From Limosilactobacillus coleohominis 101-4-CHN (GTDB taxonomy: Bacteria > Bacillota > Bacilli > Lactobacillales > Lactobacillaceae): a stretch of 64,000 nt of DNA. Every line of letters starts with the position of its first letter. The first letter of the stretch is position 1. This document shows, in pieces, positions 15,716 to 58,050 of this stretch. The notes under the pieces are model-generated. The model saw nothing but the letters and a program-made list of their open reading frames with translations. It was not told where the DNA came from and made no database searches. The translations under genes and the position numbers were made by a program. The stretch covers positions 82,853 to 146,852 of the forward strand of contig NZ_GG698806.1 of the NCBI RefSeq assembly GCF_000161935.1, in the 5' to 3' direction.

Positions 15716-16426
15716 CTAAGCAAAAAACTGCTGCCAATTTTGTTCAATTTGTTGTTCTAATTCAATTGCGGTTAGCTTTCTCAAATGAGCCACCTCATCA
15801 TACAGACGCTGCATCGTCTGCCAATAATCAATTTCATCAAGCGGTTTGTTCTGCGCCCAGGAAATTCCTTCTAAGCCATCACTCTCAATAAAAATCAGCT
15901 CCGCAGGAACCTGTTGAGCAACTTTTTGAACTGCCGAATCATTAAAGACATCAGGGCCTACCGAAAACCAAGTATTCGGCACTGCTAGATACTGTTGTAG
16001 GTAACGTTTTGATGAATACCAGTGAACCAGCTTATGAACATCTGGAAACTCATGAATCCCCTCCAAAAGTTCCCGCTCACAACCCTTAACATGCAAAACA
16101 ACTGGTTTATGATTCATAGCTGCTAATTCCAATTGTTTTTGAAATACTGGACGTTGAATAGCTAACGGCACTTCTGTTCACGTCGTATCCAGTCCGATTT
16201 CACCAATCACTGAAACACTCGCTAATAAATCCGTGTCGATCGTTTCCTGCCTTGCTTGCCATGGATGAACACCATAACTTAATTTTTGTTGAGCATTAGC
16301 AACTTGCCGATTTCTTTCATACTCTGCGTTACTTGTCGAACTAATCGTACTTTTCATTTGATGTTGCTGCTGCACCTGAATAATCTGCTGATGCTCATCG
16401 TTATGACAATGGATATCAATTAACAT
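15716..16426 (-). pseudogene. TatD-family hydrolase gene with internal TGA
   Basis: The frame encodes about 236 residues of a TatD-like metal-dependent hydrolase: N-terminal IDIHCHNDE metal motif, SYGVHPWQA, and IGEIGLDTT, followed by a TGA codon at 16178-16180. The same frame then continues PLAIQRPVFQKQLELA, VVLHVKG, and ends with ESDGLEG. A Trp codon (TGG) would restore a normal TatD reading. GTG at 16171 could restart translation but has no ribosome site. The ATG overlaps the upstream ykoE stop as TAATG. It may be a nonsense mutation or a sequence error. Confidence 0.85.
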
Positions 16427-17004
16427 TAACGAACCTCAGGGGACAATGCCCGGTCCAGTAAATTCATAATTAACTTTACAAGCACCCCATCAAAGACTAA
16501 TGAGGACAGTGCTCCAGTAATAAACATCGCCATTTGTAAACTCACACTGAAGTGGTTCCACCCATAAATAAAGTACGACGGGATAAAGCCACCCAAGTGG
16601 GCACCAAAGGACCCCAAAAGGACACTCCCCCAACTGCACCGTTCATAACGGGACTTTTTCGGAAAGAATCCTAATTCATTTCCGGCCCCTTGAATTAAAC
16701 CTTCCATAATCGTCAATGCTCCCCACTGACCGCCAAGAAACATTTCCACCATGGAAGCAATCGTCTCACCAACCACGGCAGACCCAATTGTTGGCACTAA
16801 ATAGATTGCAATTGGTCCAGCCATATACCACAATCCCGAAAGTATCGTATCAACTAACGGTCCAATGCCGAATGGAGTTAGGAGTAATTTAACGGAGTTA
16901 TAAACTGTATTAATCAACAACATATAGATAACTCCAAATAGGATCCCGACTAGGGCTACCCGAATAACTGATGCTAAATTCCAATGTGTATAACGTTTAA
17001 ACAT
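16426..17004 (-). CDS. ykoE: ECF transporter substrate-binding subunit YkoE (thiamine precursor)
   Basis: A 192-residue hydrophobic S component with about five or six membrane segments. Family landmarks include GPIAIYLVPTIGSAVVGETIA and MEGLIQGAGNELGFF. YkoE proteins take up thiamine or hydroxymethylpyrimidine together with an ECF energizing module, which is not encoded next to it here. A TPP riboswitch with its own terminator precedes the gene, which supports the thiamine link. The stop codon overlaps the next start (TAATG), so the TatD-family gene would be translationally coupled. Confidence 0.9.
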   Translation of the reverse strand: MFKRYTHWNLASVIRVALVGILFGVIYMLLINTVYNSVKLLLTPFGIGPLVDTILSGLWYMAGPIAIYLVPTIGSAVVGETIASMVEMFLGGQWGALTIMEGLIQGAGNELGFFPKKSRYERCSWGSVLLGSFGAHLGGFIPSYFIYGWNHFSVSLQMAMFITGALSSLVFDGVLVKLIMNLLDRALSPEVR

Positions 17005-17072: not shown

Positions 17073-17097
17073 TTGGATATTTTCACATCAAATAATT

Positions 17098-17172
17098 GCT
17101 GTCTCCCTCCGCTAGTATTAACTAGATCAGGTTCTATGGGTATTTCTCAGCTAACTAAATAGCACCCCAGAC
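17098..17172 (-). promoter_or_regulatory. TPP riboswitch (THI box)
   Basis: On the minus strand the thi-box landmarks occur in order: GGGGTGC, CTGAGAAATACCC, GAACCTGATCTAG, TTAATACTAGCGGAGGGA. Thiamine pyrophosphate binding is expected to favour the downstream terminator and shut off ykoE. Confidence 0.95.
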
Positions 17173-17216
17173 AGGTTAACTTTTTTACAACGATGATCAT
17201 ACCACATCGCAGAGCC

Positions 17217-19551: not shown

Positions 19552-19779
19552 TTAGTCGTCCAATAAATAGTGTTCTTCTAAATCGCGTAAAACTTGCCAC
19601 ATCTGTCGATGCTGTGCACGCGCAATTGCATCCAGATCTCGTAAGTTCAATGACGTGGCTTTTGATTGCTGTTTGTTAAACGACTTATGTAAGGTTGTGT
19701 AGCCGTATCCGGAAGTCTTTGCAACCTGATAAATCGTCAGGTGATTTTCATTAAGATAGCTCTTAATATCAATCCGCAT
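19552..19779 (-). CDS. Small helix-turn-helix protein
   Basis: A 75-residue protein whose N-terminal half looks like a Cro/XRE-type HTH (LTIYQVAKTSGYGYTTLHKS, residues about 14-33); a short helical tail ends in HYLLDD. AAGGAAG lies 9 nt before the ATG. It precedes clpL on the same strand with no terminator between them, so co-transcription is likely. A palindrome overlaps its promoter. A role as a local regulator is inferred. Confidence 0.7.
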   Translation of the reverse strand: MRIDIKSYLNENHLTIYQVAKTSGYGYTTLHKSFNKQQSKATSLNLRDLDAIARAQHRQMWQVLRDLEEHYLLDD

Positions 19780-19912: not shown

Positions 19913-19940
19913 TTGACATTCATTAGATTTCGATTAGAAT
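19913..19940 (+). promoter_or_regulatory. Promoter of the araT operon
   Basis: TTGACA, 16 nt, TAGAAT, with a start expected near 19947, 25 nt before the leader peptide ATG. Confidence 0.8.
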
Positions 19941-19971
19941 GTACTTAATCAAATTAAATGAGGTAACACAA

Positions 19972-20040
19972 ATGACTGCATTAAATTATTCTCAATTGAA
20001 TAATGCGTTTAGCTACTGGTTCTGGAACTCCATCTCCTAG
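19972..20040 (+). CDS. Aromatic-rich leader peptide
   Basis: A 22-residue open frame with ribosome site GAGGT 7 nt before the ATG. It contains Tyr6, Phe13, Tyr15, Trp16, Phe17 and Trp18; the core is SYWFWNS, followed by ISI-type residues and a TAG stop. Six of 22 residues are aromatic, including two Trp codons two positions apart. It lies between a good promoter and a terminator that precedes an aromatic-type aminotransferase operon. It is most likely a regulatory leader read by the ribosome; a product function is not expected. Confidence 0.8.
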   Translation: MTALNYSQLNNAFSYWFWNSIS

Positions 20041-20168
20041 AGTCAGTAACCTTTTGTGATGGCTTCTAGGATTCATACATCCGGAAGCTGACCAACCTTA
20101 ATTTGGCATACTACCATTTAAGAAACGAGCGCTCCCGGGTGTTGCAGAAATGCAATTCCCGGGTTTTT
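20018..20168 (+). promoter_or_regulatory. Attenuator of the araT operon
   Basis: Hairpin P1 (20018-20051) pairs the Trp-Phe-Trp-Asn codons, GGTTCTG and ACTC, with GAGTCAG and AACC beyond the stop codon. Hairpin P2 (20062-20088) is GCTTC-GGAT/ATCC-GAAGC. The terminator CCCGGG-TTGCA-GAAA-TGCAA-CCCGGG plus T5 spans 20134-20168. CCGGAAGC (20081-20088, in P2) can also pair with GCTCCCGG (20131-20138) across the terminator's 5' arm (7 of 8 pairs), and GTCAG (20042-20046) with CTGAC (20088-20092). Mutually exclusive folds are therefore possible. No T-box sequence is present. Confidence 0.75.
20134..20168 (+). terminator. Terminator before araT
   Basis: CCCGGG arms with inner TTGCA/TGCAA, a GAAA loop and a T5 run, immediately upstream of AAAGGAGG. 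Confidence 0.9.
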
Positions 20169-20189
20169 ATTTAAAGGAGGAACTTTTCA

Positions 20190-21371
20190 ATGCCAAAAAT
20201 GAAAGCTAGTCTTAGTCAACAATTCAATCCCAACCTCTCTAGAGTTCAACCAACGCCCATCCGGGTGTTTGATAATCAAGCTAGTCAAATTCCCGGGATC
20301 GTGAAATTAACCCTTGGTGAACCGGACTTCAATGTTCCAGAAGTTGCTAAACAGGCTGCGATTGAGAGTATCAAAGATAATGACTCGCACTATTCAGCTG
20401 GTTCAGGAACCCCGGCTTTACGTGAAGCAATTTCAAACTATCTAAAGAAGCATTATGATCTCGATTATGATGCCACAACTGAAATTGCGGTCACGATTGG
20501 CGCAACCGAAGCTATCTACGCCGCCCTGTTTGCCATTATCAAACCTGGTGATCAAGTCTTGATCCCAACACCAACCTTCCCACTGTATGAAGCAGTCGTT
20601 AACCTTCTTGGTGGTGAAGCAATTAATCTTGACACCAGCAATAACAACTTCGTACTATCACCGGAAGCCTTGCAAACTGCCTTAGACCAGCACGAAAATG
20701 TTAAAGCAATTGTTTTAAACTACCCATCAAACCCAACCGGGGTTACTTATTCAGCTGACCAACTAAAGGCTCTTGCAGACGTCTTAGCAGATACGAACCT
20801 GATTGTGATTGCTGATGAAATCTACTCTGAGCTAATTTATGGTGGTCAACACACCTCCATTGCTAAATTCCTTCCTGGACAAACCATCGTCCTCAATGGT
20901 GCCTCTAAGTCTGGAGCCATGACTGGTTACCGGATTGGTTTCATGGCAGCCCCGGCAGAATTGATGAAACGATTAGGGATGGTTCACTCAATCATGATTA
21001 CTTCCCCTTCTGATCCAGCAATGGCTGCTGCCGTTCCAATCTTTGATAGCGAAGCAGGACATCAAGCTACCCTTGATATGAAAGCAGCCTACGAAAAGCG
21101 GCGAGACTTCTTAGTAGCTGCATTGCATGATCTTGGCTTCGGTGTTGCAACTCCAAATGGTGCTTTCTACGTTTTCGCTAAATTACCGGCCAAATATGGT
21201 ACTGACGACGAAGCCTTTGCTACTAAATTAGCTCAAGAAGGTAAAGTTACCGTTATTCCTGGATCATATTTCGGTGATGGCGGTGAAGGTTACTTAAGAA
21301 TGAGCTACGCTACCAGCATGGACAACCTGAAATTAGCTGTCGACCGGATCAAAAACATGTTAAATAACTAG
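20190..21371 (+). CDS. araT: Class I/II PLP aminotransferase, aromatic/AraT type
   Basis: A 393-residue fold-type I aminotransferase. It has the substrate segment LTLGEPDFNVPE near the N-terminus, NYPSNPTG, VIADEIYSELIY, the PLP-Lys in NGASKSGAMTGYRIGFM and a C-terminal Arg segment GYLRMSYATS. The length is normal. Such enzymes move amino groups from aromatic or branched amino acids to 2-oxoglutarate. The next gene is a D-2-hydroxyacid dehydrogenase, and an aromatic-rich leader precedes it, so conversion of Phe/Tyr/Trp to 2-oxo acids and then to phenyllactate-type products is the likely job. Confidence 0.85.
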   Translation: MPKMKASLSQQFNPNLSRVQPTPIRVFDNQASQIPGIVKLTLGEPDFNVPEVAKQAAIESIKDNDSHYSAGSGTPALREAISNYLKKHYDLDYDATTEIAVTIGATEAIYAALFAIIKPGDQVLIPTPTFPLYEAVVNLLGGEAINLDTSNNNFVLSPEALQTALDQHENVKAIVLNYPSNPTGVTYSADQLKALADVLADTNLIVIADEIYSELIYGGQHTSIAKFLPGQTIVLNGASKSGAMTGYRIGFMAAPAELMKRLGMVHSIMITSPSDPAMAAAVPIFDSEAGHQATLDMKAAYEKRRDFLVAALHDLGFGVATPNGAFYVFAKLPAKYGTDDEAFATKLAQEGKVTVIPGSYFGDGGEGYLRMSYATSMDNLKLAVDRIKNMLNN

Positions 21372-21384
21372 GAGGAATTCAATT

Positions 21385-22380
21385 ATGACAAAAATTTTAA
21401 TGACTAGTGTCCGCCCTGATGAGCAAAAAGCGATCAACGATTTTGCCGAACAGCACCAGATCGATGTTGTAACTACCTCTAAGCCATTTATCGACGATGA
21501 AGCCATCGCGATGACTAAGGGAATGGATGGATTAGTCATCCAGCAACACGCCAAAGTTCCTGACAACGCCTACGCTGCTTTAAAAGCCAATGGGCTTAAA
21601 CAAATTAGTACCCGAACAGCTGGTGTTGATACGATCAATGTTCCATTAGCACATGAAAACGGTCTAAAAGTAACTAACGTTCCAGCATATTCACCACGTA
21701 GCGTTGCAGAACATGCTTTAATGCAAATCTTCCGCCTTTTGCGTAAATCATATGCATTTGACCACCGGGTTGCTCAAAACGATTACCGGTGGGCTGGTCT
21801 GCAAGCCACTGAAATTCATTCCGCAACCATTGGGATCATTGGTGTTGGTCGAATTGGGGGAACCCTGGCTAAATTACTAAAGGCGTTAGATGCACGAGTG
21901 CTCGGCTACGATGTCAAACCACGAAAAGAAATGGATGGGATTGTCGAATACGTTTCAAAAGAGGAACTCCTGCAACAATCTGACGTTGTCTCATTGCACG
22001 TAGACTTAAACGATACTTCCAAAGGCCTGCTTACGCTCGATGATTTCAAGTTAATGAAACCCACTGCCGGATTGGTCAACGCTAGTCGTGGTCCTGTTGT
22101 CGTCACCCAAGACCTAGTCACCGCGCTTAAAGATCAAGAAATTGCTGCGGCCGCCCTCGATACGGTTGAAGGCGAAGAACACATTTTCAATCAAGATCAT
22201 CGCGAGGACGGTTTAGATGCTGTCCCATTAGTCAAAGAACTTCATGCGATGGACAACGTCATTCTGACCCCGCACATTGCATTTTTCACCAACATTGCAG
22301 TACAAAATATGGTTGAAATTGCCTTAACGGATGTCTTAACCATCCTTGATGGTCAATCATCACCTCACGAATTCAATTAA
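21385..22380 (+). CDS. D-2-hydroxyacid dehydrogenase
   Basis: A 331-residue NAD-dependent dehydrogenase of the D-lactate/D-2-hydroxyisocaproate group. The Rossmann motif is GIIGVGRIGGTLAKLLKA followed by the Asp in LGYDVKP that selects NAD. Catalytic segments are VNASRGPVV (Arg), an Asp/Glu region DTVEGEE and ILTPHIAFFT (His). It starts 13 nt after araT with an AGGAGG site, so they form an operon. It probably reduces the 2-oxo acids made by the aminotransferase; whether the substrate is phenylpyruvate, another oxo acid or pyruvate cannot be read from sequence. Confidence 0.88.
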   Translation: MTKILMTSVRPDEQKAINDFAEQHQIDVVTTSKPFIDDEAIAMTKGMDGLVIQQHAKVPDNAYAALKANGLKQISTRTAGVDTINVPLAHENGLKVTNVPAYSPRSVAEHALMQIFRLLRKSYAFDHRVAQNDYRWAGLQATEIHSATIGIIGVGRIGGTLAKLLKALDARVLGYDVKPRKEMDGIVEYVSKEELLQQSDVVSLHVDLNDTSKGLLTLDDFKLMKPTAGLVNASRGPVVVTQDLVTALKDQEIAAAALDTVEGEEHIFNQDHREDGLDAVPLVKELHAMDNVILTPHIAFFTNIAVQNMVEIALTDVLTILDGQSSPHEFN

Positions 22381-22400: not shown

Positions 22401-23431
22401 ATGAAAGCCAAGCTCAAAGAATTAACGATGGCCACGCTTAACGGAAACGCCATTGCCATCGTCATTGCGCTAATTCCGAGTGCATTGCTCTCTCAATTAC
22501 TACAATTTTGCCCGGTTAACTCGGTTACCACTGGGATTACCCACATGATTAACCTCGCGCAAGCCGCCTTCCCCTTCATTGCCGCTTTTGCGGTGGGGAT
22601 GATCTTAAAGTTCACCACTTTACAAGTCGGTTCGATGGCACTGGCGACCTTCGTAGCTGCCGGTAACGCAGTCCCCCACAAGGCGCCTTTATCATTAGTG
22701 GTTCTGGAATTATTTTGAACATTATGTTAACAACCTTCATTGCCTCCATTGTGGTGATCTTTTTAGATCAATTTCTTGGTCAGTTCAAAATGATTTTAGA
22801 GTCACTATTAGTATTACTGATTGCTGGTGGAATTAGCCTTCTTACCATGCCCGTAATGGTTGCAATTCAAAACGCAATTGGGCAGGTAGTCCAAGCTGCC
22901 ACTAATATGTCACCACTATTAATGGGGATTGTCCTCGGAATGTTATTTGGTGTTCTGATTGTCTCCCCAATTTCCTCCGTTGCTATCGCAATGGCAATCT
23001 CGCTTTCCGGCGTTGGATCTGGGGCCGCAAATGCTGGAATCGTTGCCTGTTCCTTTACTTTGGCATGGATGGGAGCAACTGTGAACCCGATTGGTGGAAC
23101 CCTGGCGCACTTCTTAGGTTCACCCAAGATTCAAATGGCCAACATGCTTGAAAAACCGAAACTATTCATCACAGTCATTATTGCTTCAGGTATTTCTGGT
23201 TTGTTCGCAGCACTTTTCCAAATGAATGGTACACCATTCTCCGCTGGATTTGGTTTTTCGGGATTAATCGGTCCACTAACTGCTTACCAACATTCCACCG
23301 GTTCATTCCTCCTGCTACGGGTAATCCTGGTGTTTGTAATCATCCCGGTAATCTGTGCTTGGCTCATGAATTTCGTCTTTGTTAAACGCACTACTTTTGT
23401 TCAGCCAACTGATCTAAAACTAAACCTATAA
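22401..23431 (+). pseudogene. PTS_EIIC_2/PfoR-like membrane protein, frameshifted
   Basis: Two consecutive frames together encode one membrane protein of about 340 residues. Frame 1 (22401-22718) ends in ...FVAAGNAVPHK and then drifts. Frame 2 reads GAFIISGSGIILNIM before the next in-frame stretch and runs to 23431. A lost base at about 22682 (CACAAGGCGCC, where AAGGGCGCC would keep the frame) explains the break. The downstream half has family-like runs such as IVSPISSVAIAMAISLSG. It is the third gene of the araT operon. Transport of related acids is only a guess. Confidence 0.8.
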
Positions 23432-57736: not shown

Positions 57737-57785
57737 AAAAAAGTCCCTAGAATCAATGACCATTACTGGTGTTGATTCTAGGGAC
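57737..57785 (-). terminator. T-box terminator
   Basis: GTCCCTAGAATCAA/TTGATTCTAGGGAC with a 13-16-nt loop and T7 on the minus strand. Its 5' arm lies just after the T-box sequence. Confidence 0.92.
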
Positions 57786-58050
57786 GCTGGTTAATCAATA
57801 ATCAATAGCGTGTTACCACCCTAATTTAGTCCAATCTCACGACTGCACTCTCAGTAGGTACTCCACGAAAATGTGGAAGACCCAGGTACGATAACGGGTA
57901 CCACTCCGTAAGCTGCTTGCGAGTGCTCACAACTTCCATCGCTCCGAGACCATCTTCATTAACTTTCCCAACGCTGCTTCCCATCTAACGCAGTTCTCTG
58001 GAGAAGGGGGCATTAACTACTCATCTCTTCATCACGGTTATTTAAATCTT
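57786..58050 (-). promoter_or_regulatory. T-box riboswitch, Met-type specifier
   Basis: The minus strand has the T-box core AGGGTGGTAACACGC (57822-57808), a long Stem I region with an AGTA-type bulge segment (GATGAGTAGTTAATG) and the candidate specifier ATG in GAAGATGGTCTC (57953-57951). Binding of uncharged tRNA-Met is expected to stop termination and turn on the methyltransferase. Confidence 0.85.

Follow-up and report, generated by a model that had tools for sequence, protein, structure and literature searches.

The operon encoding an AraT-type aminotransferase in Limosilactobacillus coleohominis 101-4-CHN is preceded by a short reading frame ending in a run of aromatic codons and by a series of RNA segments able to pair in two mutually exclusive ways, an arrangement that probably (at roughly 0.78, judging from sequence comparison) constitutes a ribosome-mediated transcription attenuator sensing charged aromatic tRNAs. 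Lactobacillaceae are generally taken to control their amino acid genes by T-boxes and repressors, and operons of the araT/2-hydroxyacid dehydrogenase type are usually assigned to a catabolic route that yields phenyllactate-type products. The original prediction of an aromatic leader peptide and attenuator at this locus, made from the letters of a 64,000-nt stretch of DNA (the window, to which all coordinates refer), is upheld by the comparison with relatives described here.

Organization of the araT leader

All parts of the locus lie on the plus strand. The sigma-70-type promoter (TTGACA-16-TAGAAT, 19913..19940) matches the consensus at 11 of 12 bases and lies at the position originally given; of 104 leader-bearing loci, 96 have a loose promoter pattern, with 8–12 of the 12 bases, upstream of the leader. 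In many Limosilactobacillus leaders, a motif resembling ATTARAA recurs, by eye, within the 16-base spacer and the −10 box (19919–19940 in the window), and a second, protein-based control is possible. The leader frame, MTALNYSQLNNAFSYWFWNSIS (19972..20040), comprises 22 codons and a TAG stop (20038–20040), with an ATG start at 19972 and a GAGG upstream of it (19960–19963); the peptide ends in FSYWFWNSIS, and its aromatic run is kept in relatives.

The RNA falls into six segments. Segment 1 (20014..20026), the Tyr-Trp-Phe-Trp codons, is identified by pairing and covariation as the 5′ arm of hairpin P1 (helix 1:2), the 3′ arm of which is segment 2 (20035..20048), with the stop codon inside it; here, 20014–20026 pair with 20035–20037 and 20039–20048. 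The Trp-Phe-Trp codons are therefore paired as first proposed, but so is the Tyr codon, while the Asn codon contributes a single base, and the 3′ arm, originally placed past the stop codon, in fact straddles it and lies only partly beyond. In the second hairpin, P2 (3:4), 20061–20067 and 20069–20072 of segment 3 (20060..20072) pair with 20079–20089 of segment 4 (20077..20089). The terminator (5:6) is formed by 20134–20146 of segment 5 (20131..20146) and 20151–20163 of segment 6 (20151..20168), which ends in TTTTT, and the araT start codon (20190) follows 21 bases further on. The 22-codon leader with its SYWFWNS core, P2 and the terminator were all present in the sequence as described.

Helices 1:2, 3:4 and 5:6 are mutually exclusive with two others. 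In 2:3, which was absent from the earlier description, 20036–20045 of segment 2 serve as the 5′ arm and pair with 20060–20070 (20060–20063 and 20065–20070) of segment 3. In the antiterminator, 4:5, 20077–20088 pair with 20131–20142 through 11 base pairs and one mismatch; the double pairing proposed for CCGGAAGC, within P2 or with the terminator arm, is thus real and longer than claimed.

Downstream of the terminator, the operon encodes a PLP aminotransferase of the AraT type (393 aa, 20190..21371; PF00155), for which the families matched are generic and the name araT comes from the original prediction, a D-2-hydroxyacid dehydrogenase (21385..22380; PF02826, PF00389) and a PTS_EIIC_2-type membrane protein (22401..23431; PF13303). 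The last is split into two overlapping frames (22401–22718 and 22715–23431), which match PF13303 positions 1–79 and 95–326, and the split is either a frameshift or a sequencing error. In the nearest relative (L031, with an araT 97% identical), the PTS_EIIC_2 region is open throughout the stretch compared. Elsewhere in the window, a TPP riboswitch lies on the minus strand (17087–17179) before a membrane-protein-like ORF (16426–17004).

Distribution of the leader among relatives

We searched for comparable leaders with a strict criterion, namely a frame of 12–45 codons with four or more aromatics out of six close to its end and a terminator before araT. Such an arrangement was found for 106 of 233 araT-type genes, a total that takes in loci fetched for their leader pattern, as against none on the reverse strand and a mean of 0.8 in dinucleotide shuffles. 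This criterion replaced a looser one (four aromatics in eight codons at any upstream place), which proved useless, since it marked 75 of 137 genes but also gave 34 with shuffled sequences and 19 with the reverse strand. AraT homologues were also fetched regardless of any leader: the best 30 from 301 genomes of the family and more from 50 genomes of the genus, and a further 80 regions picked from the matches listed, which rank highest among at least 590 candidates. Among AraT-homology loci only, the strict criterion marked 64 of 135 genes in one set, including two false frames, and 27 of 81 genes, including one false frame, in the set of these 80 highest-ranking candidates, the genomes of which overlap with those of the first.

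In most of the first thirty loci and the further genus loci, the frame ends alike and at a similar position (AYAFWFSD, YYFWFS, CWFWK, FYFWYFG, NFYFKYFG and the like), the exceptions being L012, L013, L017, L028 and L127. In L127, a Limosilactobacillus relative, the leader is absent, through either rearrangement or loss, and araT comes directly after a small gene, similar by eye to the window ORF at 19552–19779. Leaders occur in Limosilactobacillus, Leuconostoc, Lactiplantibacillus, Furfurilactobacillus, Lacticaseibacillus, Lentilactobacillus, Secundilactobacillus and Agrilactobacillus, and in one Sporolactobacillus locus (L240, found by AraT homology), with the leader-like frame KNYYYCFRLFR and hairpins that by eye are Lactiplantibacillus-like. 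Both the leader frame and the hairpins are thus kept in relatives, and the lack of conservation that would have spoken against an attenuator was not what we saw.

Once false frames and duplicate upstream regions had been taken out of the 106, 83 distinct leaders were left, in which Phe is present in 83, Tyr in 82 and Trp in 75. Three TTG-started frames, L091, L098 and L251, were rejected as leaders, each being by eye the end of an upstream gene; together with L106, they were removed by hand from the set of 80 leaders used below, which also leaves out L068 and L239 (motif filter) and L240 (by hand). The residue counts were taken from the 83 because L068, L239 and L240 have no Trp and L239 has no Tyr. 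Real leaders recognizable by eye in L035 and L046 escape the strict test, L009 was excluded because of stops in its araT, and some P1 assignments among the 80 are wrong (in L001, for example, the local fold took another partner).

A search of the 301 genomes with the codon pattern [FY][FY]FW[FY]F yielded many chance or coding matches among those listed. FYFWFFFA-like matches ahead of a gene that by eye resembles rpoB in two genera were rejected as leaders, being mostly without an in-frame start. The conserved FYFWFFFA or YYFWFFF stretch just before this gene in the two genera (L143–L152, L155 and L158) is probably a T-rich RNA element rather than an ORF. The pattern with one codon and a stop as additional requirements had matches in 21 of the 246 genomes searched from the order. 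Most of the 17 pattern matches outside Lactobacillaceae are devoid of an in-frame start codon, which is present in L186, L188, L199, L200, L203 and L204, with surroundings judged by eye only.

Linkage of the leader to one operon

The 85 leader-marked proteins (two of them, L091 and L098, owing to false frames) all fall into one part, of 126 rows, of a tree built from 198 distinct AraT proteins; 41 of these rows are unmarked by the strict test, and a leader is found in 0 of 69 members of the paralogous clade. The SH-aLRT support of the two forks is 90 and 89 in a quick search, and the leader label requires 18 changes on the tree as opposed to 64 in shuffles. A relative of the dehydrogenase and/or PTS_EIIC_2 protein lies downstream on the same strand for 95 of 100 leader genes but only 7 of 120 leaderless ones, counted for genes with at least 400 bases downstream, with the window proteins as references and over rows that are related and in part duplicate. 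The leader thus goes with the araT/2-hydroxyacid dehydrogenase/PTS_EIIC_2 operon. One further locus, L176, has the leader MTTSNVTNQPQVKYYFWYFGFSN (L176:900-2000 region), with hairpins and a terminator recognized by eye, directly before a PTS_EIIC_2 gene; araT is absent from the 3 kb examined there.

Compensatory changes in the helices

Covariation was counted in two alignments, A1, with 12 Limosilactobacillus leaders, and A3, with 15 leaders of Leuconostoc and its kin, each against 500 shuffles. All five helices contain at least two two-sided compensatory pairs in both. In A1, helices 1:2, 3:4 and 5:6 together have 12 two-sided pairs, as compared to 6.1 in shuffles that ignore kinship among the sequences (0 of 500 as high) and 3–6 with slid partners, and the alternative helices 2:3 and 4:5 have 10, as compared to 4.4 (0 of 500) and 1–3. 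The corresponding values in A3, measured against the same kind of kinship-blind shuffles, are 13 versus 6.2 (0 of 500), with 3–5 for slid partners, and 9 versus 3.8 (0 of 500), with 0–7 for slid partners. P1, P2 and the terminator, the three hairpins of the original prediction, taken together show compensatory changes above shuffles in relatives. Counting further pair types instead gave no excess over shuffles for 2:3 and 4:5 in A1 or for either helix set in A3.

The clearest case of covariation comes from five Leuconostoc leaders in which a Trp codon has been replaced with Lys (TTTTGG to TTTAAG). In the same leaders, segment 2 has changed from CCAAAA to CTTAAA and segment 3 from TTGG to TAGG, a three-way change predicted to keep both 1:2 and 2:3. 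In a third alignment (A2, 23 Limosilactobacillus leaders), 1:2 and the core of 2:3 are nearly invariant, and the latter shows no covariation; this MAFFT alignment has P2 and 4:5 out of register in some rows and was excluded from the formal counts.

The decisive evidence is conservation rather than folding energy. The whole leader folds at −65.9 kcal/mol, compared to −45.7 ± 4.1 for shuffles (z −4.9); the P1–P2 part on its own reaches a z of −1.4, equalled by 15 of 200 shuffles. The duplexes of 4:5, compared with shuffles sequence by sequence, have p ≤ 0.05 in 35 of 80 leaders (p = 0.24 in the window), and the window terminator was not among the results of a simple terminator scan.

Predicted switch and direction of the response

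We propose that the ribosome would follow RNA polymerase along the leader. With charged aromatic tRNAs at hand, it would get to the stop codon within segment 2 and cover this segment, or depart and let 1:2 form; 3:4 would then form, leaving segment 5 free, so that 5:6 would terminate transcription and the operon would be off. With aromatic tRNAs scarce, the ribosome would stall at the Tyr-Trp-Phe-Trp codons, over segment 1 but not 2; 2:3 would form first, segment 4 would be free to pair with 5, the terminator would be blocked, and araT, the 2-hydroxyacid dehydrogenase and the PTS_EIIC_2 gene would be transcribed.

The locus has the parts such a switch calls for, that is, a short ORF with a start codon, a Shine–Dalgarno sequence and clustered regulatory codons, and mutually exclusive terminator and antiterminator helices. 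In silico, the antiterminator is freed by a stall on these codons and blocked once the ribosome has moved on to the stop, yet 4:5 stays possible at equilibrium. With 20035 as the limit of a mask that mimics a ribosome on the aromatic codons, and with the 3′ half of the terminator absent, the predicted fold contains both 2:3 and 4:5 (−32.4 kcal/mol). Masking up to 20052, as for a ribosome at the stop, makes 2:3 impossible, and the equilibrium fold of the window leader without segment 6 keeps 4:5; once segment 6 is present, the terminator prevails in the computed folds. Because the equilibrium fold retains 4:5 while the ribosome occupies the stop, the off state would require 3:4 to be in place before segment 5 has been transcribed, as we infer from the order of synthesis.

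In the 69 leaders that could be scored (11 of the 80 could not), the RNA able to keep segment 3 from segment 4 has a median energy of −18.7 kcal/mol if the ribosome stands on the aromatic codon third from the end, −13.2 kcal/mol if it stands on the last one and −4.4 kcal/mol if it stands on the stop. From the third-last aromatic to the stop, the loss amounts to 13.5 kcal/mol versus 4.4 in shuffles, with z above 2 in 51 of 69, and between the last aromatic and the stop 60 of 69 leaders lose at least 3 kcal/mol, the other nine less.

The original prediction left two directions open, a response to starvation as in trpL and one to plenty as in tnaC. In the latter, the nascent peptide would sense free aromatics and arrest the ribosome, and their excess would switch a catabolic operon on. 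We consider this unlikely, although it is the best placed of the alternatives. A stall inside the aromatic run gives the ON fold whatever its cause, and an aminotransferase combined with a 2-hydroxyacid dehydrogenase is usually taken to degrade aromatics to aryl-lactates. The leader resembles tnaC in being a predicted aromatic-sensing frame before an apparently catabolic gene. However, the arrest peptide encoded by tnaC keeps a fixed distance from the stop codon, whereas neither fixed residues nor a fixed distance from the stop was found here: the last aromatic codon lies 0 to 9 residues from the stop in the 80 leaders, Phe, Tyr and Trp are interchangeable among leaders, and Trp can be Lys, which is unlike a sequence-specific arrest peptide. 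In addition, arrest at the stop would leave segment 2 under the ribosome and so favour the OFF state, which, together with the variable distance, makes tnaC-like arrest at the stop unlikely. The floating stop, the interchangeable aromatics, the compensated Trp-to-Lys change and the covering of segment 2 at the stop are the reasons why induction by starvation, as in trpL or hisL, is favoured over tnaC-like induction by this comparative anatomy.

It is also conceivable, if somewhat less probable still, that the terminator is read by a tRNA (as in a T-box), by a protein such as TRAP or by an unknown ligand, with the ORF only tuning the response. The genome that harbours the window is rich in T-boxes (24 matches, seven of them above the cut-off), and a means of sensing tRNA without a leader peptide is accordingly available to this host. 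At the leader itself, no Rfam family was found at gathering score, and a search at E values of up to 5 returned four chance-level matches, none of them to the T-box covariance model, which agrees with the earlier statement that no T-box is visible before araT; moreover, the coding run is itself segment 1 of the switch. Within the window, a T-box match of 82.5 bits, below the Rfam cut-off and hence missing from the scan at gathering score, lies on the minus strand at 57777–58041, corresponding to 140629–140893 of the contig.

Least probable of all, at long odds, is that the frame encodes a functional small peptide (membrane or secreted, for example) followed by an ordinary terminator region, for, although its aromatic C-terminal part is kept across many genera, the N-terminal halves are by eye not conserved, neither the length nor the C-terminal tail is constant, compensatory changes maintain the pairing of the codons with RNA further downstream, and the leader is tied to one operon.

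Relation to known attenuators

In its layout, the predicted attenuator agrees with hisL of enteric bacteria, which combines a leader of regulatory codons with six segments, A–F, pairing as A:B, C:D and E:F or, alternatively, as B:C and D:E. The araT leader differs from it in having aromatic instead of His codons, in its phylum, and in its operon of aminotransferase and hydroxyacid dehydrogenase genes. In trpL and pheL, too, the translation of aromatic codons decides between terminator and antiterminator, but these leaders have four segments and precede biosynthetic genes, whereas the araT leader mixes Phe, Tyr and Trp codons.

Among Firmicutes, His leader attenuators are known, those in the first of the two reports cited having a terminator and an antiterminator; as far as the cited parts of these reports go, they precede the his operon in the B. 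cereus group, Eubacteriales and Erysipelotrichales and hisS paralogues in bacilli (PMC9413887, PMC2965389). They are of the ribosome type, like the araT leader, but carry His codons, and in the same parts of these reports none stands before araT (PMC9413887, PMC2965389). The candidate uORFC-13-1, described in the cited part of another survey from Acholeplasma and environmental sequences (24 representatives), precedes aroF (DAHP synthase); like the araT leader, it combines aromatic codons, here one or more for Phe, with a terminator and stands before a gene of aromatic metabolism, albeit a gene other than araT (PMC8632094). A leader attenuator before araT was not found in searches of the open-licence literature. 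By analogy, the araT leader would represent a new family, the mechanism of which would be the known one of trp and his attenuators.

Aromatic metabolism of the host

In the genome that contains the window, we found no match to prephenate dehydratase, the tryptophan synthase alpha subunit (TrpA) or chorismate synthase, for which controls were positive in 14 of 14 genomes, nor to type I dehydroquinase, for which they were positive in only 7 of 14. Going by these missing matches, the host very likely cannot make aromatic amino acids. Prephenate dehydratase is encoded in 30 of the 301 family genomes and in three of the 51 leader-bearing genomes counted among them. The only two members of the genus with this enzyme among the 301 (G130 and G215) have no relative of the window AraT at an E value of 1e-130.

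A predicted starvation switch placed on an aminotransferase, a dehydrogenase and a carrier in a host devoid of the biosynthetic matches suggests salvage of aromatic keto or hydroxy acids. Tentatively, then, the operon may serve aromatic salvage in auxotrophic lactic acid bacteria, in which, under Phe or Tyr starvation, the PTS_EIIC_2 protein would act as a carrier importing aromatic 2-hydroxy or 2-keto acids and the enzymes would convert them to the amino acids; we regard this as a possibility that is rather less likely to be right than wrong.

The araT leader would extend an attenuator of the enteric leader-peptide type to several genera of lactic acid bacteria, where it is tied to a single operon. 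Through it, a PTS_EIIC_2 membrane protein that is so far uncharacterised becomes connected with aromatic metabolism, and it predicts that an aryl-lactate operon, relevant to food and gut metabolites, would answer to aromatic starvation.
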